Position numbers and translations under genes: made by a program. The notes beneath the pieces were generated by a model that ran no database searches, was not told the DNA's origin, and was given only the letters and a program-made list of their open reading frames with translations. From NCBI RefSeq assembly GCF_000179615.1, contig NZ_AEDD01000001.1:1-64000 (forward strand): 64,000 nt of DNA, read 5' to 3'. Of this stretch, positions 47,067-64,000 are shown one piece after another (position 1 is the stretch's first letter; the number at the start of each line of letters is the position of its first letter). Source of the DNA: Paenibacillus curdlanolyticus YK9. GTDB lineage: Bacteria; Bacillota; Bacilli; Paenibacillales; Paenibacillaceae.

Positions 47067-47557
47067 GGTTCATCCTTCTTTTCTATAAGAATATTGTTTA
47101 TATTGACGTTTTTATATTTGCTTCATTAGGTTCAATTGTACGGATTTTTTAGCGATTGTATACAGTTGGGCGTAGACTTTAGCGAGAATTTTAATAAAAT
47201 GGCTCCTGTGAAATAAGATACATAAAAAATATATAAAAAATTAAATTCAACTCTTGCTGTAAAATAGAAAATGATGATACAGTAAATGGGAAATGAGTGT
47301 GTTCTTAGTTCTAATAAAGTAAAGAATATGCGAATTTGAATCAGAGAGGGGTTAAACAACACTAACAGAAAGGAGAGGTAGAATCATTTCGATGATGTGA
47401 AGTTGTAAGCGCTATTAAATAAACATAAGGGCGATGCATTTTGAAACCAAGCGGTTTACAAAACAACCCCGGTACTTTATTCCGTGAAATGTGACTAGCA
47501 ATGAGTCATTTTCATAGAAAAAGGCCGGGGTTTTATTTATTTGAGAGGAGAATAGAC
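47067..47557 (+). promoter_or_regulatory. AT-rich intergenic region with structured leader
   Basis: This 490-bp gap holds no gene. From 47461 the sequence forms a long fold. AACCCCGG (47465-47472) pairs with CCGGGGTT (47525-47532), which is followed by TTATTTATT. Inside, GTGAAATG-GACT and AGTCATTTTCA make a second hairpin, and AAACC/GGTTT another just upstream. A terminator-like stem before the ribosome site at 47542-47550 suggests an attenuator or riboswitch. I cannot match it to a known riboswitch class by eye. Confidence 0.45.
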
Positions 47558-49972
47558 GTGAAATTCAGGAAGCTTAGAGCACTATTAATCATCTTAGTTT
47601 CGATTGGCATGCTTTGGAACATGGACCATGTAGCAACTGCAAGTCAACAAACAGAGGTTGCTGCGACGAATAATCTGGAAGAGGAAGTCGTACCAGAGGC
47701 GCCAGGGGTTATTAATGAAAAGTCGGTCAATGCTTCGTTGGAGAAGAAAGGCAAGAAAGTGGTCAGAGAGCTCGGTGAGAAGCGAACACGAAACAGTAAA
47801 CAGTTTTTGTTATCAGACGGAACGGTCGAATATATCAGTTCTCTAACAGATATTCACTATGAAGATAATCGTGGCGGACTGCGAAATATTAACACGGTGC
47901 TTCAGGACGGGGCGACTATTGATATCAATAAAGCGCCAATGTCAAAAGAAAATGCCAAACGAATGAAAGGCAATAAAAATAAAACAGGTGCAAAGCATGC
48001 AGAAAATGAATACTTCCGTGCACTGGAAGTTCCCTATGAAATTCAAGTGCCGAAGAAATTCAATACAGGATATCGGATTGGCTATGGGGATGACGAGCTA
48101 ACCTTTATTCCAATAGGCGCACAAGCGAGTAAAGGGAAGCTGGACCCAGCAACGAAAGACACGGTTTTATATAAGGATGTTTGGAAAGAAACCGATGTGG
48201 AGTTGATCGCAACTAGCAACGGCATTAAGGAAAACATTTATTTGAACAGCGATGCAGCGCCTGATTCTTTCTCGTTCGAGGTTATAGGGAACCTTGCCAA
48301 TAATATGACTGCTGGTGAACTCGTGTTAATGCCAGCGTGGCTGCAGGATAAGAGCGGAGCAAAGCGGGATGTCACATTGACCAAAAGAAAAAACGGGAAT
48401 AAGACTTTTGTGGATGTGAAGTGGGACAATAAGGGGCTGGTTTATCCTATTGTTATTGATCCTACGACGACGATTAGTATGGAGAACTGCATGTATGTGG
48501 ATAGTATGAATCCAAATAAATCCTTCCCGTACAATTCCCCTGTCAAAGTACAAGGGATGTATTTCTATAATAACTACTTCAGTAAAATCACCTTATTTAA
48601 ATATAATTTATCGGCAATTCCTGCAGGAAGCCAGATTATTAGCAGTTCCCTGGATCTAGGTACAGTTCAAAAAGTCTATAATTTTTACCCGCAGACCTCA
48701 AACCCTGGATATATGGATGTAATCGCCCGAAGACTCACAGGTAGTTGGAATATACAGACAACATATAGCACGATGCCTGCTTACACGACTGATCAAGCAA
48801 GCCCTGTCGTTAGAGTGGCCAGTTGGGGGCAAAGACTTCTTTTTGATTTAAAAGATATGACGCAGTTCGCTGTGAATAACAGCAACGGCCAACTGAACTT
48901 TGGGGTTTATAGAGAAGCCGCTGATCAATTTGACGAAATTACATTTAATGGATTAGCTTCTACTATGACGATTACTTACGCAACTACAACCCCGTATGTG
49001 ATCAATGGAACTATTAGTAATGATAAGAACGTCGTAAACCTTGCGTGGCAAGTTCAGTCAGTGTCTCCTCAGGTGAAATATCAAATTATTGGGACTAAAA
49101 ATAATCTCTGGGAGGCTTATGATTCAGGAATCGTCAGCAATGCTTCTTCAACTCATACGGTTGCGCTTACTAATGGTACATGGAGCTTTGCAGTGAGGGT
49201 ATTAAACAGTACGACATGGGGGCCATGGCACATCTTAAACAGTTCTATAACAATTAACAGTGGACCAGGGGTTACGTACAGCTACAGCAACAACCTGCTC
49301 ACGCAAATATTTAACAATGATACCGGTGAAAAAATGAATCTGGAGTATGACCTGAACGGCAACCTAAAGAAAAAAGTGAAGGCGGGTATTTCACAAAAGA
49401 AGCTCATAATGGATGGAAATCCGGTCGAATGGACATCTAGAACGAGAAAAATAGAAGATGGATACGACGATTTTCTGGATACAACCATTAAACAACCGGA
49501 GAGGGATATTAGAAGCGTGTACACGGAGAGTGATGGAACATACTTCTATATCATGATCGAGCTAGGGAGATTGCAGAATTACGATATGCTGTTGCCGCAT
49601 GGCTATAATGACGACAGTTATTTCGTTTATTTAGGAGCGCCCAATGGTACAGCTACGCTGACAAGATTCGGAACAAGTCTTGCATCAATGCATGCCTATT
49701 ATGAGATTGGAAGTTGGGAACAAACTAACCATAATACAACCGTACATGAATATAGGAACGGAGCTTGGCAATTGACATGGTCGAGCTTGTATGTAAATAA
49801 TGCCACAAGTTCGAGACGAATCATTATAGATACAGGTGCAGGGAAGGTTTTTGGAGTTAGTGCCATTCTGGAATTTAAAATTCCTCTTGACAAAATACCT
49901 AATGCTGATTTAAGTAAGGTATTTGTTGTGGCGGGAAGTGACACGAAAGATGTAGATATTGCTTCGAATTAA
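47558..49972 (+). CDS. Secreted DNRLRE-domain protein of the Rhs/WapA locus
   Basis: The 804-residue exported protein starts at GTG 47558, with AGAGGAG 7 nt upstream; the frame further upstream overlaps the leader hairpin. It has a signal peptide (LRALLIILVSIGMLWNM) and an N-terminal domain seen in Firmicute Rhs/WapA proteins (RNSKQFLLSDGTVEYISSL). A DNRLRE-type module follows (RRLTGSWNIQTTYSTMPAY), then an FnIII-like segment, one YD-type repeat (MNLEYDLNGNLKKKVK) and a C-terminal DOMON/CBM9-like domain. It lies 41 bp before the toxin gene and is probably co-exported with it as a surface partner. Confidence 0.75.
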   Translation: MKFRKLRALLIILVSIGMLWNMDHVATASQQTEVAATNNLEEEVVPEAPGVINEKSVNASLEKKGKKVVRELGEKRTRNSKQFLLSDGTVEYISSLTDIHYEDNRGGLRNINTVLQDGATIDINKAPMSKENAKRMKGNKNKTGAKHAENEYFRALEVPYEIQVPKKFNTGYRIGYGDDELTFIPIGAQASKGKLDPATKDTVLYKDVWKETDVELIATSNGIKENIYLNSDAAPDSFSFEVIGNLANNMTAGELVLMPAWLQDKSGAKRDVTLTKRKNGNKTFVDVKWDNKGLVYPIVIDPTTTISMENCMYVDSMNPNKSFPYNSPVKVQGMYFYNNYFSKITLFKYNLSAIPAGSQIISSSLDLGTVQKVYNFYPQTSNPGYMDVIARRLTGSWNIQTTYSTMPAYTTDQASPVVRVASWGQRLLFDLKDMTQFAVNNSNGQLNFGVYREAADQFDEITFNGLASTMTITYATTTPYVINGTISNDKNVVNLAWQVQSVSPQVKYQIIGTKNNLWEAYDSGIVSNASSTHTVALTNGTWSFAVRVLNSTTWGPWHILNSSITINSGPGVTYSYSNNLLTQIFNNDTGEKMNLEYDLNGNLKKKVKAGISQKKLIMDGNPVEWTSRTRKIEDGYDDFLDTTIKQPERDIRSVYTESDGTYFYIMIELGRLQNYDMLLPHGYNDDSYFVYLGAPNGTATLTRFGTSLASMHAYYEIGSWEQTNHNTTVHEYRNGAWQLTWSSLYVNNATSSRRIIIDTGAGKVFGVSAILEFKIPLDKIPNADLSKVFVVAGSDTKDVDIASN

Positions 49973-50013: not shown

Positions 50014-53000
50014 ATGAGGTTTCGAAACTGGAGCATGGTACTCCTAGCAGTCTTATTATTATGGACGGCAGTCGTGCCGCAAGTTCAAGCTGAGAATGAG
50101 CCAGCGCCTGTAGAGCGTCAACCATATGTCATTGGATTCATCGATAAAGAAATGGGCGTCGCTTCATTAGGGAGTAATGTCAAGAAATCATATCATCAGT
50201 TTCCTATTGTTCTTGCGGAACTAACGCTGGAGGAAGTTGTAAAATTGCAGGCAGATCCGAATCTGTCCTTTATTGAAGAAGATGGAGAAGTTACGAAATC
50301 TTCTATTGCAGCCTCGCAGAAAATAACGAAAAAACAAACGGAAAAAACTAGACTGGTCACAACTCCTCAAGTGACTGCTGCCACTTCCACAGCCACGGGC
50401 AAGGGAATTAAAGTTGCTGTATTGGACAGCGGTAGTTGGTCGGGGGATTCACTGACGATTAAAGGCGGTACTAATATCGTCAACGAAGGAGAAGGCTTTA
50501 GTGATGATAATGGCCACGGCACATATGTGGCTAGTTTGGTGAAGAAGCTGGCGCCGGACTCTGATGTTTATGCTGTGAAAGTATTGGATGATCAAGGCAA
50601 AGGTAAGCTGAGCCAAGTGTTGGGCGGGCTCGATTGGGCGATTGCAAACCAGATGCAAGTGGTTACGATGAGTTTTGGTACGAGAATATACTCTCAAGCA
50701 TTAGCAGCAGCGACTAGTACGGCATCAGATAAAGGTCTGCTTATGTTAGCGGCGGCAGGCAATGCGAGCTTAGATAGTCTGGATTTCCCGGCACAGTATA
50801 ACAGCGTAATGGCTGTTGGTGCAGTGGATGCTGATCAAAAGAGGTTACCAAGCTCGAACAAAGATTCTAAGCTTGAGCTATCGGCGGTGGCAACTGGGCT
50901 CGAAGGGCTTGACGCACAAGGGAAGCCTTTGACTCTTGAAGGGACATCAGCAGCGGTGCCACAGGCTGCAGCAGTTGCTGCGCTGTACTGGTCGACGTTC
51001 CCGACATTGAAAGCTAGTGAAATTAGAGAAATGATGAACGTCAATGCCGTGAATCTCGGCAGCATGGAAGAATACGGGCATGGCTTGGTTCAATATAAAT
51101 TAAATGATGTTAACACTAATACAGATTTAAACCCGAATTCGACTGAAGATCAACCAGAACAAGAAGTAGAAAAGGCAGAGGAAGGGACAGAAGCGCCAAA
51201 GATTGTTCCAACTGAAAAGAGTGATCTTACAGGAGCTCAATCAGAAGACTTAACTGCTCTCGGCGATAGTCGTCTTGAGATCGAACGTCAGCGGATGGAA
51301 TCCGCTCGTGAGTTACAGAAACAGAAGGATGATTACGCTGCTGCAGAAGGTCGTCTTACTGCTGGGGATCTAGTAAGTGAATTCGGAGTTACTCAGGAGT
51401 GGGTAGATAACAAACTATCTGAAGGTTCTACCCTTTCTGAATTGTTCACATCACTTTGGCAAGCAAATGGCGATGGATTCGGAAATAAAAGTAGTCAATC
51501 CGAAACTGAAAACATTGAAGTGATCTCGCCAGAAACCGTGAATAATTCTAACGATCAGCAAAGCACAGTGGACGCCAGTGGCGCTGAGGCTTTGAAGCCT
51601 GCGAGAGAAGCAACAGCAACAGATGCTGTATATGGGAACACGAGCAACATTCCTGCTCATTCAGTGAATAACAAACTTATGAATAAGTTTGCTATCAAGC
51701 CAACCCTATATAGTAAAGTTACAAATCAATTGAATGGTGCAGGGGCTACGAAAGCAACAGCATCGCTGATGAGCGATCCTAACACGCTGCCTACACCTGA
51801 GAAGATCGTGAAACCTTACGCTAAGACAAGCGAAGCGCCATATACGGTTGGCTTGCATCAAGAAAATGTATCCTTATTATCAGGGAGCCTTTCAATCTCG
51901 GAGAATGATCTAACATTGCCAGGCAGGAATGGACTTTCCTTCACTCTAGGGCGTACCTATAATAGCTCAAGCGCTCAATGGGACGAGATGGATGTTTCGT
52001 ATTCCTATGATTATAACTATGTCTATGATTATAACGTAAGTACTAGATCCCGTAACCTAGTATATGACATAAGCGGGAGCTTCAGCGAAATGCTGGTCAA
52101 GTACCCGTGCTCAGGAACGAATAATACACCTACTGGATCATCGGTATATTCAGCAGGAACAGGATCTGTAACGCCAATTGATTCCCAAACTTTCGTGACT
52201 AAAAGCTCAGCGGATGCTTATAAAGCAACCATACCAACAAAACCTAGAGTGGTAGAACATCCGTGTGGGTATGAACCGAATCGCGTTTATTACAAAGAAT
52301 ATTCATTTAGCAGCTGGAGTACGTTGGAGCGTTATGGATCGTGGAGTAATGCCGTTCAAGCCCCAAACCCGTTTACTAGTCAACCATTCACCACTTCGGA
52401 TCAAGCGAATGCGGATCGTGCAATTCTTAACGCTGGTGCATATAATGCGATCGTGAAAGGCGGCACATATGATGACGGCTATTATGATCAGGAATATACC
52501 TTTACTGTTAATGCGAATCAGATAGTATATGCGGTAATAGCTAACCAGAATGCGGTTAATACAACTACGAAGGATATGATGGAGTCCAAGTTTCCGATTG
52601 GAAAGGGCTGGTCATGGGATATCCCTTACCTGAAATTTGACAATGGCAGAACCTATGTCAGTCTCGGTGATGGCGGGACGTATGCAATTGAAGGCAACCA
52701 ACTGAAAAATTACCCTTGGTCGGATCTAACATTTACATCAGATTCATCGGTAATATCGGGTGGGCGCACCTCCTCATATGCATTGAAGTCAGTATATGGC
52801 ATTGATCAATATTTTGACATCAGAGGAAATATACTCCTGATTAGAGATAATCATAACAATACAATCTCGTTCCAATACAGCGCGGTAGCTCCATATGGTG
52901 ATGTATTAACTGGTGTTACGGATGCAATTGGCAACACCATGAACATTGCTTACAGCAGTGCTAGCGTAGAGATTTCAATTGGCAGCCGTAAGGTTATTTA

Positions 53001-56000
53001 CAGCAAGTCTGTTGTTAATGGCAAAGAAATGCTAAGCCAGGTTATAGATCCGCAAGGACGGCAAACAACGTATAGTTATGCGGTTAAACCTGCAAAGTTT
53101 AGCCTTGTCGGATCAACACCAACGTATGATAACGCATATGCTCTATTAACTGAGGTAGTACATCCTACCGGTGTGAAGACGAAATATGAGTATGAGATTA
53201 ATCCCGTTACCCGCATGCTTGGCGACAATCAATCCGCACAGGCTTATCGTGTTGCAAATCGCCAAGATGTAGAAACGCTATCTGATGGATCAATCAGAAC
53301 CTATAATTACTCCAGCATCGTCTATCAAGGAGATATGGGAAGCAATTATCGTGGCGACACAACTTTCTCTGCGACTTTATTCGATGGCTTGTTGGAGCAC
53401 ACGCACACTTATTTGAAACACTACAGTGGCGATGAAGTTGGGAATGATTATTATGAGACAGAGAGCAAGGTAAGTGACGGTACCATTGTTCGCAAGACGA
53501 CGAATACTTATGATCAAGCTAAACGGCGTACTGTGCCGATTAGTGTAACAAACGTTACGCAAAATATCGTGACAGGAGCAACCTCAACACCGGTCACTTC
53601 GTCTCAAACATTTGATGATTACCAGAATACATTAACTTCAGTCAGTCCGTTAGGTGTAACAGCAACTAATGTATTTGATCCGAATACGCATTTGTTGAAA
53701 ACCTCTATTGTGCCGGTTCAAGCGGGACAGAGCATTTATACCGAAATTACCTCGCGTAATGCACAGGGAGATATTCTGGAAGCAATAGTGAAGGATACAA
53801 CTGCTTCAGGAGCTGTGCTGCAGCATTCTCAATTCCAGTATGATAGTTATGGCAATGTTACGCTTATTCGGAATAAGGAAGAGAATCGTGATTTAGACAC
53901 TTTAATCACATACGACGAAAGCAAATATCAAGGGGCATACCCTACCAGTATCAATCAGCCTTACACAGATGCGGATGGAATCGCGCAAATTTTTACTAAT
54001 AGTATGGAGTACGATAAAACTTCCGGATTGATCACCAGTTATCGAACAGGCAAAGGCGATACGACAAGCTACACCTATGATAAGCTAGGTCGCATTATCC
54101 AAGTATTACAGCCAGATCAGACTACAGTTAGCTACTCGATTGATGATGCCCATAACGAAATACGTGTTACGGATGAAGAAGGACGCATGCAGTACATGCA
54201 ATGGAACGCCTTAGGCATGTCAACGGAGCAAGGGATTGTTTCTGGTGCAAGCAAGTTGAGAAAGGCAACTCAGCACTATGATAGCTATTCACGTCCTGAT
54301 TGGACTGAAGATGCATTGGGGCGGAGAACGACAAGCGAATACGACAAATGGGGAAGGGCTATTGCAGTTACAGCGCCAGGTGCTGGCTTATCGACCGTAC
54401 AATACGATGATATTGCAAGGTCGATAACATCTATGGATGCTGATGGTACACGCTCTCGCACATGGGGCGATATTCTTGGACGTGTGGTTAAGCAAGAAGT
54501 AGGACAAGGTAGCGGCTATCTTGTTGTTGGGACGCAGACCTATACGTATACCGGTGAAGTGTTAACAGCACAAGATGCGAAGAATGCGCTCACGCAATAT
54601 AGTTATGATCCACTAGGCCGGGTCATTCAAGTGACGGGAGCAGATGGGAATATCTACAAATATAGCTATGATCGTGCTGGGAATATGACGAAGATAACCT
54701 ATCCTGATCTCCAGGTCCTTACGCGCAGTTACGACCAGCTCGGAAGACTTATTTCCAGCACAGATGCTATCCAACAGCAAACGCGTCAGTATTATGATGC
54801 AAATGGTAATGTGAGTCGAACAGTCGATAAGAGCGGCAAGAGTTTTACGTTCACTTATAACAATCGTGACCAATTGCTTTCAAAGCAAGGGCCAACTGAT
54901 ACCATTAGTTACACGTATGATAAAACAGGCGCTCGCAAGTCGTTGACGGATAGTGGGAATTTGGTTACACAGTATAACTATGACCCGGTTACCAGCCTGT
55001 TGACTTCCGTAATCTATCCGGATGGCAAAACTATCGCTTATCAGTATAATACGGACGGCAGCAGGAGTGAAATGCATACGCCATTCAATGATACAGTAAA
55101 CTATGGGTATAACAGCTTTGGCCAATTGGATCAGGTCAAGTGGAATGGTGCAATGCAGGGGCAGTATGCATACACGCCAGCGGGACGCGTCCAAAGCATT
55201 AGTAAAGCTAATAATATTGTTGAAAACCTCACGTTTACAGATGGCAGCCTTACTAGTCTGACGCATAAGACAGTTGGCAGTGCAAATCCCTTGCGAAGCT
55301 ATCAATATGGTTACGATAATAACCGGAATATAACATCAATAAGTGAAAGTGCCGCGGGAATCCAGACGAAGAACAATCAGTTTGCGTATGATTCCATGAA
55401 TCGGATTAGTACATCGACGTTGAACAATGAAAGCTATAGCTATGATTCTCGTGGTAATCGTAAGGCACTCAACTCAACATCATCCATTTATGAAACATCG
55501 GATGATGTGAACTATGAATATGATGAATGGGATCGGCTAAAGCGTGTAACGCGTAGCGGAGGAAACGTTGTTGAATACACATACAATGGAGATAATCTAT
55601 TAGCGACACGTAAAGAGAATAATGTTACAACGCGCTACTATTACGATGGAGACCGAGTTATCGGTGAGGGAATCGTTCAGGCGGACGGTTCAGTTACAGA
55701 GAAGGCTAGCTATCTATACGGAGAAGGTCTAATTATGCGAGAGGATAGTACCAATGCCAGAGGCTATTACTTGCATAATGGACATGGGGATGTCGTTGAG
55801 ATCCGTTCTGATGCCGGAAGTATTCTTAACAGTTACGACTACGATTTATGGGGAAATACAATTGCTAGTAATGAGACGGTAGACAACCTATTCCGCTATT
55901 CCGGCGAAATGTGGGATGAGGGTGCTAAGCTTCAGTATCTGAGGGCAAGATGGTATGACCCGTCCATGGGAAGGTTTATTAATAAGGATACGTATGAAGG

Positions 56001-56712
56001 GGATATTACGAATCCTCTGAGTTTGAATTTGTATACGTATGTTAACAACAATCCTTTAATTTATTTTGATCCGACAGGTCATTGGAATGAAAAATTAGGA
56101 TTTAATTATGTTATTAATGAAATGAAGAACATGTGGGCGATAGCACCCACACAAGCTGAAAAAGATTATTGGGCTCAACAAGCTGAAAATGAAAGAAAAA
56201 AGGTTAGACAAACGAAATACTATAAAAACGGTTACTATTCTGAATCCGATATTATGCAGACATCTGACCCCATGATTCCAATGGATGAGATCATGAAACA
56301 AGCGCATGCAATGTATCCCACACTCAGTGCAATTCAAGGCTTTACTGAAGCGACTGCACAATATCTTGAAAATCATCCAGGGGAAGGTATAGCAATAGGT
56401 GCAGGAGGTTTATTCGTCAAGGGAAGTAGGATAGCAAAACTTGAAGAAGGGTTGAATTTTGCTGTAAAACCAGCTGAACATATGGCTAATAGCGCAAGAT
56501 TTGTACCTGTACAAACCTTAATATCTGCGATAAAGTATGGCAAGGGTCTACCAGATCCAAGAGGGAGTTCAGCTACTATGTTTTATACTGTAATGTATAG
56601 AAATGGAGCAAAGTACAACCTTGAGGTTCTTTATGACGCTACTAATAACATGGTTCTTCACTTTGAGTATACTCGAAAAGCGATAGGTGATCTTCCGGCA
56701 ATTAGCAAATAA
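50014..56712 (+). CDS. Subtilase-Rhs polymorphic toxin
   Basis: The 2232-residue secreted toxin has a signal peptide (1-26), an inhibitor-I9-like propeptide (37-95), and an S8 protease domain with intact triad D138 (VAVLDSGSW), H168 (NGHGTYVAS) and S312 (LEGTSAAVP), plus oxyanion N250. An acidic linker (about 370-570) precedes the Rhs/YD-repeat shell (about 610-1985). The Rhs core LQYLRARWYDPSMGRF ends in DPTGH (2019-2023). The last 210 residues are the variable toxin: a pre-toxin helical linker, a glycine-rich segment, and a tip containing RFVPVQTLISAIKYGKG and LHFEYTRKAIG. The tip resembles small RNase-type toxin folds, but I cannot name the family. The immunity gene follows 14 bp later. 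Confidence 0.88.
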   Translation: MRFRNWSMVLLAVLLLWTAVVPQVQAENEPAPVERQPYVIGFIDKEMGVASLGSNVKKSYHQFPIVLAELTLEEVVKLQADPNLSFIEEDGEVTKSSIAASQKITKKQTEKTRLVTTPQVTAATSTATGKGIKVAVLDSGSWSGDSLTIKGGTNIVNEGEGFSDDNGHGTYVASLVKKLAPDSDVYAVKVLDDQGKGKLSQVLGGLDWAIANQMQVVTMSFGTRIYSQALAAATSTASDKGLLMLAAAGNASLDSLDFPAQYNSVMAVGAVDADQKRLPSSNKDSKLELSAVATGLEGLDAQGKPLTLEGTSAAVPQAAAVAALYWSTFPTLKASEIREMMNVNAVNLGSMEEYGHGLVQYKLNDVNTNTDLNPNSTEDQPEQEVEKAEEGTEAPKIVPTEKSDLTGAQSEDLTALGDSRLEIERQRMESARELQKQKDDYAAAEGRLTAGDLVSEFGVTQEWVDNKLSEGSTLSELFTSLWQANGDGFGNKSSQSETENIEVISPETVNNSNDQQSTVDASGAEALKPAREATATDAVYGNTSNIPAHSVNNKLMNKFAIKPTLYSKVTNQLNGAGATKATASLMSDPNTLPTPEKIVKPYAKTSEAPYTVGLHQENVSLLSGSLSISENDLTLPGRNGLSFTLGRTYNSSSAQWDEMDVSYSYDYNYVYDYNVSTRSRNLVYDISGSFSEMLVKYPCSGTNNTPTGSSVYSAGTGSVTPIDSQTFVTKSSADAYKATIPTKPRVVEHPCGYEPNRVYYKEYSFSSWSTLERYGSWSNAVQAPNPFTSQPFTTSDQANADRAILNAGAYNAIVKGGTYDDGYYDQEYTFTVNANQIVYAVIANQNAVNTTTKDMMESKFPIGKGWSWDIPYLKFDNGRTYVSLGDGGTYAIEGNQLKNYPWSDLTFTSDSSVISGGRTSSYALKSVYGIDQYFDIRGNILLIRDNHNNTISFQYSAVAPYGDVLTGVTDAIGNTMNIAYSSASVEISIGSRKVIYSKSVVNGKEMLSQVIDPQGRQTTYSYAVKPAKFSLVGSTPTYDNAYALLTEVVHPTGVKTKYEYEINPVTRMLGDNQSAQAYRVANRQDVETLSDGSIRTYNYSSIVYQGDMGSNYRGDTTFSATLFDGLLEHTHTYLKHYSGDEVGNDYYETESKVSDGTIVRKTTNTYDQAKRRTVPISVTNVTQNIVTGATSTPVTSSQTFDDYQNTLTSVSPLGVTATNVFDPNTHLLKTSIVPVQAGQSIYTEITSRNAQGDILEAIVKDTTASGAVLQHSQFQYDSYGNVTLIRNKEENRDLDTLITYDESKYQGAYPTSINQPYTDADGIAQIFTNSMEYDKTSGLITSYRTGKGDTTSYTYDKLGRIIQVLQPDQTTVSYSIDDAHNEIRVTDEEGRMQYMQWNALGMSTEQGIVSGASKLRKATQHYDSYSRPDWTEDALGRRTTSEYDKWGRAIAVTAPGAGLSTVQYDDIARSITSMDADGTRSRTWGDILGRVVKQEVGQGSGYLVVGTQTYTYTGEVLTAQDAKNALTQYSYDPLGRVIQVTGADGNIYKYSYDRAGNMTKITYPDLQVLTRSYDQLGRLISSTDAIQQQTRQYYDANGNVSRTVDKSGKSFTFTYNNRDQLLSKQGPTDTISYTYDKTGARKSLTDSGNLVTQYNYDPVTSLLTSVIYPDGKTIAYQYNTDGSRSEMHTPFNDTVNYGYNSFGQLDQVKWNGAMQGQYAYTPAGRVQSISKANNIVENLTFTDGSLTSLTHKTVGSANPLRSYQYGYDNNRNITSISESAAGIQTKNNQFAYDSMNRISTSTLNNESYSYDSRGNRKALNSTSSIYETSDDVNYEYDEWDRLKRVTRSGGNVVEYTYNGDNLLATRKENNVTTRYYYDGDRVIGEGIVQADGSVTEKASYLYGEGLIMREDSTNARGYYLHNGHGDVVEIRSDAGSILNSYDYDLWGNTIASNETVDNLFRYSGEMWDEGAKLQYLRARWYDPSMGRFINKDTYEGDITNPLSLNLYTYVNNNPLIYFDPTGHWNEKLGFNYVINEMKNMWAIAPTQAEKDYWAQQAENERKKVRQTKYYKNGYYSESDIMQTSDPMIPMDEIMKQAHAMYPTLSAIQGFTEATAQYLENHPGEGIAIGAGGLFVKGSRIAKLEEGLNFAVKPAEHMANSARFVPVQTLISAIKYGKGLPDPRGSSATMFYTVMYRNGAKYNLEVLYDATNNMVLHFEYTRKAIGDLPAISK

Positions 56713-56726
56713 GGTGGAGGTAATAA

Positions 56727-57014
56727 ATGAAAGAGCGTACACCTAAAGAACGCCTATACTGGCTTCTAAAGTTATTTAAAAGTCGCCTTATAGATATGGA
56801 TTATTTTTGTAATGAATTTCATATCACATTTGATCATGATACAGATTATGACGAATTAACAAGTAAAGAAAACTTATTATTCGAAGACCTTGCTAGAAGT
56901 GCCGCAAGATTCTCAGGAAGTCTTGAGGACCATTTAAATTATCCTAAGGTATACGCTACCCAAGATGAAATTAATAACAAGGTCACTGCTATACTAGAAG
57001 AGTTGAATATATAA
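56727..57014 (+). CDS. Probable immunity protein for the Rhs toxin
   Basis: The 95-residue helical protein starts 14 bp after the toxin stop, with GGTGGAGG well placed. It is acidic in its central part (FDHDTDYDELTSKENLLFED) and has the size and position of a cognate immunity protein. The pattern, with helices ending in ARFSGSLEDHLNYPKVYATQ, resembles colicin-D-immunity-like bundles. This comparison is from memory. A terminator follows, so toxin and immunity gene share a transcript. Confidence 0.75.
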   Translation: MKERTPKERLYWLLKLFKSRLIDMDYFCNEFHITFDHDTDYDELTSKENLLFEDLARSAARFSGSLEDHLNYPKVYATQDEINNKVTAILEELNI

Positions 57015-57022
57015 AATTATAC

Positions 57023-57059
57023 AACCACATGCGAGTGTAACAACTCCATGTGGTTTTTT
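57023..57059 (+). terminator. Intrinsic terminator of the toxin-immunity operon
   Basis: AACCACATG and CATGTGGTT form a perfect 9-bp stem with a 15-nt loop, followed by TTTT. It marks the end of the Rhs transcript and the likely left side of the inserted element. Confidence 0.88.
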
Positions 57060-57097
57060 CTTACAATCGACAGGTGCTAGAGAAGAAAGAAAATGAA

Positions 57098-57312
57098 TTT
57101 TACGAAGTACTCATGATGGCCATATTTTAATGTCACATTAAATTCTACGACGAACTCATGAATATGAAAATTTAACATGAAGAATGCAAGGGCTATATCC
57201 TTAGGAAAGCGCATTGTAAGTAGGGATTTACGACGGACTTATGATGGTGAAATTTATATGTGAACAGTAAATTTTACGAATGACTCATGAATGTGAAAAT
57301 TTAATGTGAATT
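57098..57312 (+). repeat. Iteron-like direct repeats upstream of rep
   Basis: Four copies of TTTACGA..GACTCATGAATG plus GAAAATTTAATGTGAA start near 57098, 57144, 57227 and 57273. They form two pairs with a 46-bp internal period; pair starts are 129 bp apart. Two pairs end in ATGCAAG/TTGCAAG, so the larger unit is itself duplicated. Their AT-rich nature and location upstream of an initiator gene suggest a replication origin or transfer control region. Confidence 0.7.
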
Positions 57313-57364
57313 TTGCAAGAAATCCAACCGAAGATACAGGTATCATCGAAGTGGGGAATCATGT

Positions 57365-57529
57365 ATGCAAACGTTGACCAGACATATAAAATCGTGCGAC
57401 TATGACGAGTTGATAGAACTAGCACTTGCGATAAAGGATAAGCATTGGTTTCTTGATCTTACTCAGAGGAAGAAGGAGCTTGAAGCGGCGGAGGGAGAAT
57501 TTCGTCGGGACTTCGCGTATGTAGATTAG
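57365..57529 (+). CDS. Small hypothetical protein of the integrative element
   Basis: A 54-residue product reading MQTLTRHIKSCDYDELIELA and continuing with LAIKDKHWFLDLTQRKKELE, ending FRRDFAYVD. It is charged and helical. It starts at ATG 57365, with GTGGGG some 11 nt upstream. Too short for family assignment, but the amino-acid pattern is protein-like, and small genes of this kind are common between iterons and rep in mobile elements. Confidence 0.55.
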   Translation: MQTLTRHIKSCDYDELIELALAIKDKHWFLDLTQRKKELEAAEGEFRRDFAYVD

Positions 57530-57743
57530 GTGTAGCCTTACGAGAAACCAGCGAGCCAACCTGTCAAGTCTAACGAGGCAAGAATATACCGACCAAGCGA
57601 TTAGAGCGCCATAGATGCAAAGCTCGTTGGTACAACCGTTAGTTGAAGGTTGCCAATGGGAAAAGTTTCTGTCATAATAACTACTGCCAAGGACAAGGAG
57701 AGTATTGTCCGCAGAGCAACTTGAAAATAACTTCCAATCACTT

Positions 57744-57791
57744 AGAGCGCTTAGAAAATTCTACTACGTAGGATTCTTCGCGCTCTTTTTG
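57744..57791 (+). terminator. Leader terminator/attenuator upstream of rep
   Basis: AGAGCGC (57744-57750) and GCGCTCT (57780-57786) enclose an inner stem (CTAC/GTAG) and are followed by TTTTT. It lies about 120 bp before the rep ribosome site, where attenuation commonly controls initiator level in rolling-circle replicons. Confidence 0.6.
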
Positions 57792-57912
57792 CGTTCGGCG
57801 TTTCAAAAGGCGCGGTCGGTGGCGACCTCTATAATACTACGTATTAGTCACCTAAGTGTTAAATTTTGTTCGCTGCGCGAGAAGAATAGGAAGCTAAAGG
57901 AGACTGTTAGCA

Positions 57913-58764
57913 CTGGAAGTTAACGTATCAACAGACAAATTGGTCGTTGAGTATAAGGATATACCGCAGTGGTATTTCCTACGCTGGTATATGGGATTAA
58001 TGTATGGAGGTAAGTATCAAATAAAGGAGACCTACGGAAAACTGTACTGCTATCAGCTACATATCGAGCGAACCGACGGAGCCTACCTGCATCTTTTTTA
58101 CCGCAATCCTAGTGAGAAGGGTAGTGGCTGGTATACGTTACGGCTTGAGACACGTCCCGAATATTATGAGCAATTTACCGATGAGCTTGAGGAGATACGC
58201 CGCCAAACAAGTGGAGTCTATTTTGTTAGCTGCGACATCGCCTACGATATTACCATTTCATTGGATAATGTATTTGTAGGAAGCAAGGATATGCGGCGAG
58301 AACTGAACCTATACAAAGGGACGCGGTACTTCGGCGAGGCTCATCAACGGAAGCAGGATGGTTATTGTCGAGTTTACGATAAGCAGCTTGAACTATGGGA
58401 GCGGCATCGTATTCAAACGGATGGTGAACTGACTCGCATTGAGATCGTATACAAGCCAGAGTCACGCATACCGCTAACGGACATCATCAATCATCCTCCG
58501 ACTCAGAACCGCCAATATTTTGCTAGCATCATTGAGGACTGGACAGTGCTCCCTGCTAAACAAGTCGAACGAGTGCGGAACTGGCAGATAGGTGAGAACA
58601 CGTATACACGTTACATCCGAGAGACAATCAAACAGTTACTTGCCGACAGGTCTATCGACTTCGATCAATTGGCAAGTGAACAATGGGAAGCTATGTTAGC
58701 AAAACCTTGTGCGGCGTTACTTGGAAAAGAAACCGTTCTGCGTGATTCAATAAGCATGAAGTAG
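57913..58764 (+). CDS. Replication initiation protein (Rep_trans-like, PF02486 type)
   Basis: A roughly 283-residue relaxase-like initiator related to the Tn916/ICE and rolling-circle Rep_trans family. Landmarks are QWYFLRWYMGLMYGGKYQIK, YFVSCDIAYDITISLDNVFV, GTRYFGEAHQRKQDGYCRVY (DKQLELWER follows) and ELTRIEIVYKPESR. The start is unusual. AAAGGAGA (57896-57903) is followed 9 nt later by CTG 57913, with no ATG, GTG or TTG between; the first such codon in frame is TTG 57940, which lacks a ribosome site. I take CTG as the start, tentatively. Confidence 0.78.
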   Translation: MEVNVSTDKLVVEYKDIPQWYFLRWYMGLMYGGKYQIKETYGKLYCYQLHIERTDGAYLHLFYRNPSEKGSGWYTLRLETRPEYYEQFTDELEEIRRQTSGVYFVSCDIAYDITISLDNVFVGSKDMRRELNLYKGTRYFGEAHQRKQDGYCRVYDKQLELWERHRIQTDGELTRIEIVYKPESRIPLTDIINHPPTQNRQYFASIIEDWTVLPAKQVERVRNWQIGENTYTRYIRETIKQLLADRSIDFDQLASEQWEAMLAKPCAALLGKETVLRDSISMK

Positions 58765-58855
58765 GAAAGTTACCGAGAAGCAACTTGAACAGGCGCATAA
58801 TCCAAGCGCGAATGCGAGAATGGGCAATAAATACAACCCAATGGAGGAATATACG

Positions 58856-59014
58856 ATGATGAACGATACGACACACAACAAACAATCACGTAAAGGAAAA
58901 GAGGAACCCGTCAAGCGGCGATTCAGGCAGCTTGCATTGTTTCCAGAATTTCAGGAGTACGTTGATCAGATAAAGGTGTTCAAAAGCCGTAGTCGCAGAC
59001 GCAGACGGTGGTAA
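58856..59014 (+). CDS. Small basic protein of the integrative element
   Basis: The 52-residue product starts at ATG 58856 (or 58859), with GGAGG 7 nt upstream. It is strongly basic (KQSRKGKEEPVKRRFRQLAL, then FKSRSRRRRRW) and could bind nucleic acid. It sits 91 bp after rep and is closed by a hairpin. No family is recognised. Confidence 0.6.
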   Translation: MMNDTTHNKQSRKGKEEPVKRRFRQLALFPEFQEYVDQIKVFKSRSRRRRRW

Positions 59015-59025
59015 TAAATTGAAGT

Positions 59026-59063
59026 TTAAAAAAAGACTCTGCATACCGAAAGGCAACAGAGTC
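59026..59063 (-). terminator. Intrinsic terminator of the XRE gene
   Basis: GACTCTG and CAGAGTC (59035-59041, 59057-59063) form the stem. On the minus strand it is followed by seven T residues. It ends the regulator transcribed from 59412. Confidence 0.75.
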
Positions 59064-59412
59064 ACTCTTCCCTATTAAGGGGAAGTTGATCAAATATCTC
59101 TAGCATAATGTTTTTGACCATGCGAATTTGTTTCACGTCACGCTTGGAGAGTAAGTAGATGATTTCGTCTAGTTCGCTGTCCACAGCGCTGGATTTGGGT
59201 TCTTCATAGTCGAAGAAAAGACTAAGTTTGACCTGTAACGCGTCAGCGATTTTCGCCAAGTTTTCAAGAGAGACGTTGCGTTCTCCTCGTTCTACTCCCC
59301 CTATGTACGAATAATGAAACTGGCTAATTTCGGCAAGCTGATCTTGCGTAAGCCCTTTAGATTTGCGAATTTCCCTGATTCGGGCTCCTACCAACTCTAG
59401 CACATTGGACAT
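59062..59412 (-). CDS. XRE/Cro-CI-type repressor
   Basis: A 116-residue regulator with an N-terminal helix-turn-helix (IREIRKSKGLTQDQLAEISQ, FHYSYIGGVERGERNVSLEN) and a short acidic C-terminal tail. ATG 59412 follows AGAGGTG; the longer frame is not supported. It diverges from the 59559 gene. The 147-bp gap contains spaced AGTACT/AATACT motifs (59473-59501), which are candidate operators. It probably keeps the element quiescent. Confidence 0.85.
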   Translation of the reverse strand: MSNVLELVGARIREIRKSKGLTQDQLAEISQFHYSYIGGVERGERNVSLENLAKIADALQVKLSLFFDYEEPKSSAVDSELDEIIYLLSKRDVKQIRMVKNIMLEIFDQLPLNREE

Positions 59413-59472
59413 TCTGCTACACCTCTTATGAAAAGTGTAGTCAATGCTAGAAGTTACGGTAACAAGCACAAA

Positions 59473-59502
59473 AGTACTAAAAAATAATACTAAAAAGTAC
59501 TG
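59473..59502. promoter_or_regulatory. Repeated AGTACT motifs between XRE and exported-protein genes
   Basis: AGTACT at 59473 and at 59496, with AATACT between them, are separated by A-rich spacers. They lie in the divergent gap between the XRE gene and the 59559 gene. Palindromic 6-mers at regular spacing suit an XRE dimer. Confidence 0.4.
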
Positions 59503-59558
59503 TTGTCATGTACAATATTCGGTATTACAACATTTACCGAATAAGGAGAGTTATCAAC

Positions 59559-60215
59559 ATGGCTAACGGAATAAGTTCAGCGGCAGCAAAGTCTACCAAT
59601 GCGAAATCGGTAGGAAGTGGGAACGCAAAATCTAAGGGTAACAATGCCTTGTATGGCTGCATGGGATGTCTAGGCTTCTTAGTTTTCATCGGCATTGTAG
59701 TTATAGTCATCCTGAACGTTATGGATAGTGGCTCGGGGACAACTGCGCAAACAAGTACCGTTAACGAAACTATTGCAGAGCAATCGGGTACAGAAGCCAA
59801 CGATCAAGTTGAAGCGGCTATTGTCAATGCCATTGGAGACCGTACCAATAATGACGAACCGCGCATTATTAACCTAGAAGTCAATGACCATATGGGGACA
59901 GACTATGAAGGGGATAAAATAGTAATCGCTACCCTCCATGCCGACGATAATCTAACTGCAGCCTATATGAACGGCGGCATACAGCTAGACTCGATTAAGC
60001 TTTTCCCTGAGCTTTTCGCAATGCCTGACATTGCAGAGGTTGCGCTACTGTGGCAATTTGAAACAACGGACGAGTATGGAAATTCGAGTCTTTCAACGCT
60101 GTTGAAAATAGACTTAACGAAGCAGACGGCCAATAAAATCAACTGGGACAAATTTGATCGTAATAATTTCAAAGCTGTCGCGGATAGCTATTGGGAGTCG
60201 CCAGCGTTACGTTAA
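59559..60215 (+). CDS. Single-pass membrane/exported hypothetical protein
   Basis: The 218-residue protein starts at ATG 59559, 8 nt after AAGGAGAG. A Ser/Ala/Lys-rich N-terminus is followed by one membrane segment at about 33-55 (GCMGCLGFLVFIGIVVIVIL). The exterior is acidic, with a beta-rich region (DYEGDKIVIATLHADDNLTA, AEVALLWQFETTDEYGNSSL). Similar proteins of unknown function occur in Gram-positive phages and integrative elements. No specific family is claimed. Confidence 0.65.
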   Translation: MANGISSAAAKSTNAKSVGSGNAKSKGNNALYGCMGCLGFLVFIGIVVIVILNVMDSGSGTTAQTSTVNETIAEQSGTEANDQVEAAIVNAIGDRTNNDEPRIINLEVNDHMGTDYEGDKIVIATLHADDNLTAAYMNGGIQLDSIKLFPELFAMPDIAEVALLWQFETTDEYGNSSLSTLLKIDLTKQTANKINWDKFDRNNFKAVADSYWESPALR

Positions 60216-60237
60216 GCTGTGAAATAGATACAAACCT

Positions 60238-60280
60238 CAAAGAGCGTTCTCCCTTCGAAGGTAGTGGTGAACGCTCTTTG
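60238..60280. terminator. Bidirectional intrinsic terminator
   Basis: CAAAGAGCGTTC and GAACGCTCTTTG are perfect 12-nt complements. It separates the convergent 59559 and 60506 genes. Confidence 0.8.
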
Positions 60281-60296
60281 TATTTGTGTTGGCTGC

Positions 60297-60506
60297 TTAT
60301 GTTTCAAGAACAATAAGTTGATCTAGCGTAATATCTAGCGTCTGACATAGGTTCGCCAAAGTGCTGAGATAGACGCGCTGAACAGTTGGCTTGCATAGGT
60401 CGCTAATGGTAGATGGTCGCAGTCCAGTTAAAGCGGCTAGCTGCTGTTTGGTCATGCGGCGCTCTAGCAAAATTTCGTTTACTCGTATGCGGATGGCAGG
60501 TGTCAT
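60297..60506 (-). CDS. Small XRE-type HTH regulator (YozG-like)
   Basis: A 69-residue protein that is almost entirely a helix-turn-helix domain (RVNEILLERRMTKQQLAALT, GLRPSTISDLCKPTVQRVYL), ending in a helix TLDITLDQLIVLE. GGGGGGAACACCTC precedes ATG 60506 on the minus strand. It diverges from the serine recombinase and may control it. Confidence 0.82.
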   Translation of the reverse strand: MTPAIRIRVNEILLERRMTKQQLAALTGLRPSTISDLCKPTVQRVYLSTLANLCQTLDITLDQLIVLET

Positions 60507-60712
60507 GAGGTGTTCCCCCCTTCAGATCGTTGTGAGTAGTTTACGATCTTCTGCGGCTCGAATACGAGCACAAAAATGTGGGTTGTGCAGAAATTGGAAG
60601 AGGTCGTATACTACGCATCAACGTTTAACCGTTAACGAAAGAAAGTTATCCGCAGAAAATCGGGGAAGCGTTACACGGACTACAATCACTGTAACGGGAG
60701 GGGCATTTCATC

Positions 60713-61492
60713 GTGACAAAAGTCGTCGGATACGTCCGCGTTTCAACTTATGGACAAGCAAAGGATGGCTATAGTTTATTCTACCAACTGGAAGAAATCG
60801 AAAGGTACTGTCAACAGAACGGCATGGAACTGCTTCGTGTATATGAGGACAAGGGCATAAGCGGTGCGGCAGTCGACGAAGAAGGGTTAACCGTCGAACG
60901 TGAAGGTTTGCAGGAGCTACTAGCCGATCTGCAAAGTCTTGAAGTGTCGGCAGTCATCGTCCTCAATACTTCTAGGCTATGGCGCTCGGATATGGCGAAA
61001 GTGCTTATCCAGCGTGAGCTAAAACGATACAAGGTAGATGTAACGGCGATTGAACAGCCGAGCTATAGTATCTACAATCACGACCCGAACGACTTTCTTG
61101 TGAACGGATTGCTGGAGTTGCTAGACCAGTACCAGCGGCTAGAAATTACATTGAAGTTAAGTCGTGGACGCAAGAAAAAAGCGCAACAGGGCGGCTATGC
61201 TGGCGGCGGTGTACCATATGGTTATCGAGTGGTCAAAGGCGAGAAGGTATTGCAAATTGACGATACTGGTGCAGTCGTCGTACATCGCCTGTTTGAACTG
61301 AAGGCGTTATTCTCGCACTGGTCACTTTCTCAGCTTGCAATGCAGCTCAACAATGACGGCTACCGAACAGCACAAGGTGCGGCTTTTACAAAGGTGCAGG
61401 TTAAGCGAATGTTAGATCGTGCTGAATTCTACAGCGGCATGTATAGCTACGGCGAAGTGACGGCTCCAGGTCATTATCACGCCATTATCTAA
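60713..61492 (+). CDS. Serine recombinase, C-terminally truncated
   Basis: The 259-residue remnant of a large serine integrase starts at GTG 60713 with GGGAGGGG upstream. The catalytic domain is complete (VVGYVRVSTYGQ with Ser11; AVIVLNTSRLWRSD), and the recombinase domain begins (GGVPYGYRVVKGEK; LNNDGYRTAQGAAFTKVQVK). The protein stops at GHYHAII, where family members continue for another 200-300 residues with the zinc ribbon and coiled coil. The break coincides with the left end of the IS110 element at about 61490, so the enzyme is probably dead. Confidence 0.85.
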   Translation: MTKVVGYVRVSTYGQAKDGYSLFYQLEEIERYCQQNGMELLRVYEDKGISGAAVDEEGLTVEREGLQELLADLQSLEVSAVIVLNTSRLWRSDMAKVLIQRELKRYKVDVTAIEQPSYSIYNHDPNDFLVNGLLELLDQYQRLEITLKLSRGRKKKAQQGGYAGGGVPYGYRVVKGEKVLQIDDTGAVVVHRLFELKALFSHWSLSQLAMQLNNDGYRTAQGAAFTKVQVKRMLDRAEFYSGMYSYGEVTAPGHYHAII

Positions 61493-61578
61493 GAGAGAAA
61501 CGGATGCTTAGATCGATGACATAAAACTATTTTTCGCATAGCACTTAAAAAATGACCTTATTTTGATTTATATTACCA

Positions 61579-61774
61579 CAGGTGGCGCAAGGTAGGTTTT
61601 TGCTAACGTGTCATTGCGGCGTAGTTCGCTCGAACTGAGGATGCAAACCTTACTAGTAGTACCACCTGCATAAATAATTGAATGGTTACTCATGGGCTGA
61701 AGCTATGCTATGTGTCGTTGTGGCAACGTCCATTTGGGCTCGGGATGCAGTTCAGCCTAGCAGTCACCATTCAA
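61579..61774 (+). ncRNA. Candidate IS110 bridge RNA
   Basis: Two adjacent stem-loops fill the gap before the transposase. Hairpin 1 has outer stem CAGGTGG/CCACCTG (61579-61585, 61662-61668), inner stem AGGTTT/AAACCT, and an apical GTTCG/CGAAC. Hairpin 2 has TTGAATGGTTACT/AGTCACCATTCAA (61678-61690, 61762-61774), inner GGCTGAA/TTCAGCC, and an apical GTTG/CAAC. Both have large internal loops, and both carry GGATGCA on the 3' side (61639, 61743) just before the inner stem closes. Paired loops of this kind are the target- and donor-binding loops of bridge RNAs. Confidence 0.7.
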
Positions 61775-61800
61775 TCAGCACATAAGGAGTGAAACTAGCC

Positions 61801-63039
61801 ATGAACTTGAAACCGGATCAACTGGTATATGTAGGCGTAGACCTGCACAAGCAACATCATACGGCTGTAATAATCGACTGCTGGAACAAGAAGCTAGGAG
61901 AGATCAAGTTTGACAACAAGCCGACCGTATTCCCACAGCTAGAAAAAGAGGTGAAGAAATACGTTAAGAAAGGTATGTCCGTCGTTTACGGCTTAGAGGA
62001 CGTCGGCGGCTTCGGCAGGGCATTAGCCGTTTACTTGACAGAGAAAGGTTGTTGGGTAAAGGAAGTCAATGCAAAGCTTGCCAATGCTAGACGCAAGAGC
62101 CATGTCACGATACAGAAATCGGACAGTTGGGATGCAGAATGTGTAGCCAAAGTTTTACGCGATGAATTGCTGAATCTTCCCGATGCCAAACCGATTGACC
62201 TGTACTGGGCGATTAGCCAGCTAGTCACGCAACGAAAATGGCAAGCTAGAACGCTGACGGGTATGGTCAAACGGCTTCATCAGCAGTTAGGCTACCATTA
62301 TCCAAGCTATAAGAAATTTTTCTCAGAGGTTGACGGTAAGACTGCTCTAGCATTCTGGCATAAATATCCTTCACCGTCCCGACTATCAGGTGTGGATGTG
62401 GATGAACTAGCGACGTATCTCCGAAAGCTAAGTAATTACGCCCTATCGACCAAGAAGGCGATGCAGATTCTAATGCTGATTGTCGATGATGGTGATACAA
62501 CAAGAGACTTCCAAGACAAGCGTGATTTTATTGTCAGGGATCTTGTCCGTAATATCCGATTCTACGAGCATGGATTGACCCGAATTGAGAGAGAAATCGC
62601 AAGCCTAATGAATCAGCTAGGTTTTCAACTAGAAACCATGACAGGCATAGAATTGGTTACAGCGGCAGAGCTGGTAGCAGAGATAGGCGATATTCACCGT
62701 TTTGCATCGGCTGATAAACTGGCACGATTCGCAGGTGTTGCTCCCATTGCAGTTGGTTCAGGTGACAAGCATCGGAACTATAAGAGTAAGCAAGGCAACC
62801 GAGAGCTGCATGACATTATTAAAGCTCTTGCAATCCGTCAGATTGCCGTTACACGAACGAAAAAAGAGCCACGTAATCCCTATTTTTACGCTTACTATGA
62901 GCAAAAGATGGCGGCAGGTAAAACGAAGCAACAAGCCATTGTGTGCATCATGAGGAAGCTCGTCAACGTCATTCATTACTTGATGCGAACGAAAGCAGCA
63001 TACGTCATTCCAGCAGTATCTAGCAATGAAGCGGCATGA
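61801..63039 (+). CDS. IS110-family DEDD transposase
   Basis: A 412-residue recombinase. The N-terminal RuvC-like DEDD domain is seen in VYVGVDLHKQHHTAVIIDCW, VVYGLEDVGGFGRALA and SDSWDAECVAKVLRDE. The C-terminal Tnp_20 domain is seen in LETMTGIELVTAAELVAEIG, RFASADKLARFAGVAPIAVG and SGDKHRNYKSKQGNRELHD, with the family's catalytic Ser expected in this region. ATG 61801 lies 12 nt after AAGGAG; GTG 61789 abuts the ribosome site and is rejected. It appears intact. Confidence 0.92.
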   Translation: MNLKPDQLVYVGVDLHKQHHTAVIIDCWNKKLGEIKFDNKPTVFPQLEKEVKKYVKKGMSVVYGLEDVGGFGRALAVYLTEKGCWVKEVNAKLANARRKSHVTIQKSDSWDAECVAKVLRDELLNLPDAKPIDLYWAISQLVTQRKWQARTLTGMVKRLHQQLGYHYPSYKKFFSEVDGKTALAFWHKYPSPSRLSGVDVDELATYLRKLSNYALSTKKAMQILMLIVDDGDTTRDFQDKRDFIVRDLVRNIRFYEHGLTRIEREIASLMNQLGFQLETMTGIELVTAAELVAEIGDIHRFASADKLARFAGVAPIAVGSGDKHRNYKSKQGNRELHDIIKALAIRQIAVTRTKKEPRNPYFYAYYEQKMAAGKTKQQAIVCIMRKLVNVIHYLMRTKAAYVIPAVSSNEAA

Positions 63040-63054
63040 TAAAATCATAGTATC

Positions 63055-63089
63055 GGGCGGCGATTGTAGCGACAGTCTCCGTCCTTTTT
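63055..63089 (+). terminator. Intrinsic terminator of the IS110 transposase
   Basis: GGGCGGCGATTGT and ACAGTCTCCGTCC pair over 13 positions with one mismatch and two G-T pairs around AGCG, followed by TTTTT. Confidence 0.8.
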
Positions 63090-63117
63090 ATCAGAAATAT
63101 GAGGGTTTATAAACTAG

Positions 63118-63837
63118 GATACGTTTGAAGGGGATATAAAGAATCCGTTAACATTGAATCTGTACACGTACGTGGAAAATAATCCTTTACGTTATTTTGA
63201 TCCCACAGGTAATTGGGCTACAGAGGTAACTGCTAACTGGACACTTAATGAGATGAAATGGAAATGGCAAGATGCACGTGATAAAAATGACACTAAGGCC
63301 ATGTATTATTGGGCTGGAGAAGCTAATAAGTTGCGTGCGGAAATGAGAAAGGCAGGACGTACGGAAGATCAAATCATGCAATCGGATGATGCGATGATAT
63401 CTGAAGATATTGTAATGGACATTGCTTGGGCTAGTACATTTAGTTGGATTGAAAATGACCCCACAGGTTTTGGGTTCTTGACATGGTCAGCCGATAAGAT
63501 GTTTTATATATCGGGAGGTGCAGGAGGAGCAGCACTCACCATTAAAGAAATAAGTGCGGGATTCATTAAGCATTCGATTTGGAATACTGCTTACAAAAAA
63601 ATTGGTGAAAAAGGCATGTCGACATTCATCAAGGCATTAGGTAAAGGGTTTGTTCGAAGTGAGGGTGAAGCGGGCATTAAGAGACTGACAGGTCAAGGGG
63701 TAAAGATAGGAAAGCAATGGTATCAATATGAATTAAAAGATATTTCTAAAGAATTTGGAGATTATCGATTTTATGGGAATTGGGATGATGAATTAGGACA
63801 AGTTGTGTTTACTTACTTTGGCAAGCATGTCAAATGA
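63118..63837 (+). pseudogene. Orphan Rhs C-terminal toxin cassette
   Basis: Homology to the Rhs core starts exactly at GAT 63118, right after an in-frame TAG: DTFEGDIKNPLTLNLYTYVE, then NNPLRYFDPTGN. The main toxin reads DTYEGDITNPLSLNLYTYVN at the same place (from 55986). The pre-toxin linker is also shared (LNEMKWKWQDARD, YYWAGEANKLRAEM, DQIMQSDDAMISED), but the C-terminal tip differs (LTGQGVKIGKQWYQYELKDI, SKEFGDYRFYGNWDDELGQV). It lacks a signal, protease, shell and a convincing start (only TTG 63154), so it is a displaced, silent toxin module. The toxin family is not named. Confidence 0.82.
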
Positions 63838-63852
63838 CGAGGTGGTTGTGTC

Positions 63853-64000
63853 TTGGATATATCAGTTCAAGAAATTAAGGATTTTGTGCTCGAATATAAT
63901 CTTGAGGAAAGGACTATTTCAGGGTTTTGGAATTACTTTAATAATTACCAAACTGAATGTGAGGGTGAGTTCCTTTGTGATTTCCCTGACTATAGCAGTG
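63853..64000 (+). CDS. Probable immunity protein of the orphan cassette (runs off the window)
   Basis: A start TTG 63853, preceded by GAGGTGG, opens a frame reading MDISVQEIKDFVLEYNLEER, TISGFWNYFNNYQTECEGEF and LCDFPDYSS to the window edge. It begins 15 bp after the toxin stop, the same arrangement as the first toxin-immunity pair, and is acidic as expected. A second frame from GTG 63848 is also open over this short stretch, but its composition is less protein-like. Confidence 0.65.
   Translation, partial: MDISVQEIKDFVLEYNLEERTISGFWNYFNNYQTECEGEFLCDFPDYSS

Follow-up and report, generated by a model that had tools for sequence, protein, structure and literature searches.

The first 64,000 nucleotides of contig NZ_AEDD01000001.1 from Paenibacillus curdlanolyticus YK9, hereafter the window, carry on the plus strand a gene (50014-56712) in which a subtilisin-like S8 protease module precedes an Rhs shell and a C-terminal toxin tip. 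The gene is a single uninterrupted frame of 2232 codons and most likely specifies a Sec-exported antibacterial Rhs polymorphic toxin, forming an operon with a secreted partner and an immunity protein. Sequence comparisons support the identification of the module as a subtilase that is intact at the sequence level. They also support a functional association between S8 and Rhs rather than a chance fusion, because the fusion recurs, S8 occurs on either operon partner and the catalytic triad is kept.

The S8 domain (residues 129-357; 50398-51084) matches PF00082 over the whole profile (E 9.6e-33), and Asp138, His168, Asn250 and Ser312 align with the catalytic Asp, His, Asn and Ser of subtilisin BPN' (phmmer E 9.6e-42). 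The features of the S8A family, a D-H-S triad within the family motifs and the oxyanion Asn, are present. An earlier reading of this DNA made from its letters alone (the sequence-only reading) had placed all four residues correctly. It had also recognized the N-terminal secretion signal, seen by eye at residues 1-26 (MRFRNWSMVLLAVLLLWTAVVPQVQA; 50014-50091), and an I9-like propeptide (approximately residues 27-100; 50092-50313). The propeptide match to PF05922 is weak by itself (E 0.11, 13.6 bits for a cut-off of 21.2), but residues 48-361 align with pro-subtilisin E (3whi), propeptide included, and the pattern '..YLVKF..FKH..VELT..EL..L..D..VEYIEED' is kept in fused and partner-borne S8 relatives. 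Ser312 is followed by Ala, where Met is usual (GTSM). This Met is found in none of the eight fusions identified in the family, which have A, G, S, V, F or I instead, and in 11 of the 12 partner-borne S8 domains.

The eight fusions come from several genera (the window, L065, L066, L067, L068, L069, L071 and L078), and L091 is probably a further one, cut by a contig end. A plasmid of Paenibacillus cellulosilyticus also encodes an S8-Rhs protein (L251, 2037 residues). Its length and domain limits coincide with those of L071, and L251 probably represents that gene again rather than a separate case. At 12 loci (L067, L070, L072, L096, L101, L110, L123, L140, L151, L152, L153 and L160), S8 is located on the secreted gene directly upstream of the Rhs gene. 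Two further families of the class likewise have an Rhs gene paired with an S8 partner (L258-L261). The position of S8 is constant, right behind the signal peptide and before a charged linker of low conservation, including in all fusions. Beyond S8, the remainder of the S8-bearing partners shows homology to partners without S8 (L096 versus L145, for instance, 3.8e-122). The catalytic Asp, His, Asn and Ser are all kept in seven of the eight fusions and in all 12 partner-borne domains. As the fused domains share a mean pairwise identity of 38% (range 30-63%), retention of these four specific residues would not be expected without selection. The locus L067 (5699-14907, minus strand) has S8 on both operon members, an 867-residue S8 partner standing directly upstream of the S8-Rhs fusion. 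Large S8 proteins of 1500-3700 residues (L073-L095 and L252-L257) were rejected as fusions since they contain no Rhs, as was the 560-residue S8 protein of Lederbergia (L036). Those of L252-L257, from another family of the class, measure 2589-3731 residues and some are directly followed by a large open reading frame (ORF); in L256, a 2589-residue S8 ORF is followed by an overlapping ORF of 1451 residues.

In an unrooted S8 tree, one branch (support 99/95) separates the fused domains from all other S8 proteins, and the partner-borne domains are spread over several branches. The Rhs cages of the fusions do not form one clade (six label changes on the cage tree), and the Rhs protein of L155, located beside L066 and L067 on this tree, has no S8. 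A single fusion event inherited vertically with the cage is not supported: with the fused S8 domains as one lineage but the cages not as one clade, shuffling or repeated loss is needed, and S8 is not essential. Close S8-less relatives such as L155 exist, so the protease is an accessory. S8 behaves as an N-terminal add-on that may be present or absent on either of the two proteins of a secreted system.

In the window, the second member of this system is the 823-residue secreted partner encoded 41 bp upstream of the Rhs gene (47501-49972, plus strand). At 16 other loci the partner is matched by this protein (down to 1e-68), and elsewhere members of its family bear S8 at the N-terminus. Among the 76 Rhs ORFs of at least 1400 residues collected from the family, which are not a random sample, 65 are preceded, on the same strand and within 130 bp, by an ORF of 250 residues or more, and 11 of these upstream ORFs bear S8. 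Forty loci were chosen for S8 or own-genome Rhs matches, and for 4 of the 60 added later a neighboring S8 gene was already known when they were selected. Of the 43 loci selected according to their rank in Rhs-core similarity (L105-L147), 3 were found with an S8 partner, compared with a rough random expectation of 0.1-0.2 based on 10-25 first-look S8 candidates per genome.

Between the protease and the shell lies an acidic linker followed by a helical segment (residues 367-606; 51112-51831), which represents a candidate cleavage zone. Asp and Glu make up 25% of the first 60 residues, in agreement with the sequence-only reading, and no Pfam match above the cut-off was obtained for residues 367-606. 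The helical segment at residues 420-490 (51271-51483; '..LVSEFGVTQEWVDNKLSEGSTLSELFTSLW'), also without a match in a Pfam search, has counterparts in the N-termini of S8-less Rhs proteins (L155, L097 and L101). The cage begins with a DUF6531-like region (residues 617-668; 51862-52017; E 5.9e-5, just below the cut-off) bearing the plug motif APYTVGLHQENVSLLSGSL, positioned at 608-626. A profile search then identified seven PF05593 repeats and the Rhs-associated core (residues 1943-2023; 55840-56082; TIGR03696 E 2.7e-20). Together with a variable tip and its immunity gene, these matches bear out the Rhs shell and C-terminal toxin first read from the sequence. The feature had been drawn as far as 57014; the toxin gene stops at 56712, and 56727-57014 is a separate immunity gene of 95 codons on the same strand.

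The core was placed against published autocleavage sites. It reads RWYDP...D1992...D2019PTGH2023, with Arg1979, Asp1992, Asp2019 and the DPTG at 2019 intact, and the two Asp are spaced by 27 residues versus 24 in the bacterial teneurin-like protein BiTLP. The aspartyl residues and DPTGH are kept as in S8-less Rhs. In WapA from Streptococcus suis, Rhs itself cuts the cage at the DUF6531 start and after TDPSGH, freeing both cage and toxin (PMC12704120). Since these cleavage features are also present here, the tip is predicted to be released through the Rhs aspartyl site by a cut after His2023. Retention of this site makes S8 an extra and not a replacement: of the extra or alternative processing step once proposed for the built-in subtilase, the extra one is supported. 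A related idea, in which S8 replaces a lost N-terminal self-cleavage motif, was rejected, as one and the same plug motif (consensus APY..V...E[NS][IV]S..[SN]G) is shared by Rhs proteins whether S8 is fused, partner-borne or absent.

Given its location at the position of the wall-binding region of WapA, with a charged and poorly conserved linker behind it in all fusions, S8 is best read as an envelope-side enzyme for N-terminal processing. Taken as a whole, the best explanation, to which we give about an even chance, is that of an optional accessory protease trimming the N-terminal region, separate from aspartyl toxin release. Like other subtilisins, S8 would cleave off its propeptide and so mature once outside the membrane. 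The mature enzyme could then trim the exposed N-terminal region, either its own charged linker (approximately residues 367-606), the partner, or both. Such trimming would free the Rhs cage at the cell envelope or alter the way it is retained there. The enclosed toxin would be released separately through Arg1979, Asp1992 and Asp2019, with the cut after His2023. The activity, the substrate and the order of these events are what we infer from sequence comparison.

Several observations weigh against this explanation. The linkers of the fusions share no common conserved cleavage sequence, and residues 27-379, modeled as a single sequence, gave an uninformative structure (mean pLDDT 31). An essential role is difficult to reconcile with L155 and L097, which lack S8 but share the cage and the plug motif at the N-terminus, and the same cage presumably works without protease in L155 and L107. 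In the fusion of L069 (6483-12698, minus strand), S8 lacks both the catalytic Ser (GTG for GTS) and the oxyanion Asn (AAGD for AAGN). By its sequence this module is a pseudoprotease, and its retention makes a non-catalytic role possible in at least one fusion.

Secreted subtilases are usually broad extracellular proteases, which lends some credit to a protease acting on the victim, where it would degrade S-layer or wall proteins, or secreted proteases or inhibitors, and so let the cage reach the membrane. That S8 can be carried by one component of the complex or the other is consistent with an activity that is shared and travels with the particle, and some S8 partners are surface-like proteins of 1000-3700 residues. 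However, no targeting domain was identified, and most systems do without S8 (54 of 73 Rhs scaffolds, in a sample enriched for S8 loci); we regard this role as possible but rather unlikely. The L069 pseudoprotease, on a long branch, would instead suit a folding or export chaperone, or a docking domain, for which catalysis is dispensable, and I9 propeptides are indeed chaperones. Against this, all four residues persist in 7 of 8 fusions and 12 of 12 partner-borne domains despite identities of 30-63%, so that a purely non-catalytic module appears improbable.

Release of the tip from the cage by S8 itself, instead of the aspartyl site, was an alternative raised by the sequence-only reading and has the attraction of a protease in cis. 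It conflicts with the intact Arg1979, Asp1992, Asp2019 and DPTGH, kept as in S8-less Rhs. From established Rhs structures, the tip is expected to be enclosed in the cage, beyond the reach of an N-terminal domain, and we consider this route highly unlikely. Nothing was found in favor of a functionless chance fusion or an assembly artefact, which is contradicted by an architecture common to independent genomes of several genera, by frames open without stops and by the named plasmid copy L251; such an origin is barely credible.

The toxin tip itself (residues 2024-2232; 56083-56709) gave no match in Pfam or PDB searches. Its last approximately 90 residues recur in G058, G315, G372 and G375, including on other Rhs scaffolds, and the homologue is always directly followed by a homologue of 56727-57014, so that the tip-immunity pair is conserved in five genomes. 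In G372 the homologous tip is carried by a different Rhs scaffold, and in G315 it appears as an apparent orphan cassette. The tips of the relatives of the window toxin are unrelated to its own, as expected for a variable C-terminus. Structure prediction of the tip alone yielded a helix-helix-three-strand pattern with a pLDDT of 49, and a fold search with this model returned nothing significant (best E 0.33); no toxin class is therefore claimed.

A subtilisin-Rhs fusion is already on record: Zhang et al. 2012 (PMC3482391; Table 1, footnote 3, and the Ntox32 entry) reported subtilisin in Sec-exported RHS toxins and listed this S8 peptidase as a processing protease. Only Acetivibrio cellulolyticus is given there, whereas the present case belongs to a Paenibacillaceae lineage in which the tip is another one, with an immunity gene of its own, and S8 alternates between toxin and partner gene. 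No description of this alternation was found in the open-access literature searched. S. suis WapA-CT1 (PMC12704120) shares the Sec signal, the Rhs cage, a DUF6531-like start, a DPxG-type core and a variable tip with immunity gene. In contrast, its N-terminal wall-binding region with sortase/LysM is replaced here by the S8 module, and no Pfam domain of that type was found in residues 1-620. BiTLP (PMC13018210) resembles the window protein in its Rhs/YD cage, core aspartyl cleavage and N-terminal break near the plug, but has other N-terminal domains and no S8. Subtilisin E and BPN' (S8A) likewise have a signal, a D/H/S triad and the oxyanion Asn, and their I9-type propeptide is resembled by the weakly matching I9-like segment here; they differ by an identity of approximately 30-39%, by the Met replaced here by Ala after the Ser, and by the absence of a fused 190-kDa toxin.

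Downstream of the immunity gene, the window contains on the plus strand a Rep_trans-like ORF (57940-58764; PF02486 E 2.7e-4, below the cut-off), a serine recombinase (60713-61492; PF00239 E 6.7e-24) that is next to IS110 in most relatives, an IS110-family RNA-guided transposase of 416 residues (61789-63039; NF033542 E 3.4e-56, 190.8 bits for a cut-off of 140) and an orphan Rhs tip, an order also found in L067. The orphan tip (63118-63837) consists of the right half of a core and another C-terminal domain, and appears to have been displaced; in front of it stands a TAG in the same frame, which arises at the right end of IS110. The conserved right-end sequence TTTATAAACTAG occupies 63106-63117, and the target resumes at 63118 with GATACG. 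The equivalent GATACG in the S8-Rhs gene lies at 55987, within the core/tip junction RFINKDTYEG (55972-56001). The right end of the unit is clear, and its left end is inferred at the main core site.

In nearly all of the 47 non-redundant IS110 relatives compared (50-100% identity, among L171-L240), the sequence bordering the right end is conserved and immediately precedes a toxin tip. At the Rhs core, TTTATAAACTAG is followed by GATACGTATGAGGGG, reading RFIN*DTYEG. At a pre-tip site, TTACAACWTAG is followed by GGGACGGGT, reading GTG[EK] by eye; this site is intact near the end of the 2088-residue toxin-like ORF of L219. At a HINT start, AACTAAC is followed by GAAGGGGAG, reading TNEGEKPIEEIEVGDK, the HINT reading being made by eye.

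The noncoding sequence preceding IS110 contains a loop, GCTxx[6 nt]NTTGCG, whose six enclosed nucleotides pair with six bases of the target. The guide/target pairs CGT[A/G]TC/GATACG, CGTCCC/GGGACG, CATCCC/GGGATG and CGCACC/GGTGCG were observed. Across 36 units, pairing averaged 5.89 of 6 (G-U allowed) versus 5.13 for permuted targets, whose maximum mean was 5.53 in 10,000 permutations, a number that is not an exact probability because the units are related. The third of the three target classes has no anchored loop and lay outside this test. A putative bridge RNA was delimited at 61579-61780 (plus strand), with two hairpins containing internal loops and a right target guide within 61602-61618. 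The consensus fold of the region likewise shows two hairpins, with compensatory change in 16 of 44 consensus pairs; the single-sequence fold has a z of only -1.36, and an Rfam search of 56700-64000 found nothing. These features match the right target guide of a bridge RNA as described for IS621 (PMC11208160), with which the element shares a DEDD recombinase and a structured left-end RNA carrying a target-complementary loop. It differs in its targets, the scaffold/tip junctions of toxins, and in the serine recombinase of the unit. That 2024 paper does not mention toxins or Rhs, and our literature search found no paper on IS110 with Rhs or polymorphic toxins by title or abstract.

Loci with recombinase-IS110 segments 91-94% identical carry unrelated tip and immunity genes (L205 versus L214 and L216), and some loci (L202) hold at least two tips with copies of the element between them. 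The simplest reading is that a tip-carrying unit inserts at the Rhs core site, pushing the old tip downstream; the toxin end of the window S8-Rhs protein would then be the acquired part. We give roughly equal weight for and against the fuller proposal that a mobile unit comprising tip, immunity gene, Rep, serine recombinase and IS110, with a core-addressing bridge RNA, installed the S8-Rhs tip, and that this IS110 clade performs RNA-guided tip insertion and exchange at the Rhs core, the pre-toxin GTG and the HINT start, building tip arrays. A weaker version may hold, in which IS110 units merely use toxin-tip sites as a home and displacement of the tip is a by-product. Alternatively, tips may have been captured through homologous recombination around an IS110 already in place.

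We know of no injection machine for Gram-positive Rhs toxins, whose exit through the wall and route to the target are an open question. Otherwise similar operons with or without the protease, on toxin or partner, amount to a natural experiment on the importance of the individual processing steps. The means by which polymorphic toxins exchange their tips have long been in question, the usual answer being homologous recombination. If the proposed tip exchange is true, the IS110 unit would offer a concrete RNA-guided mechanism for it.

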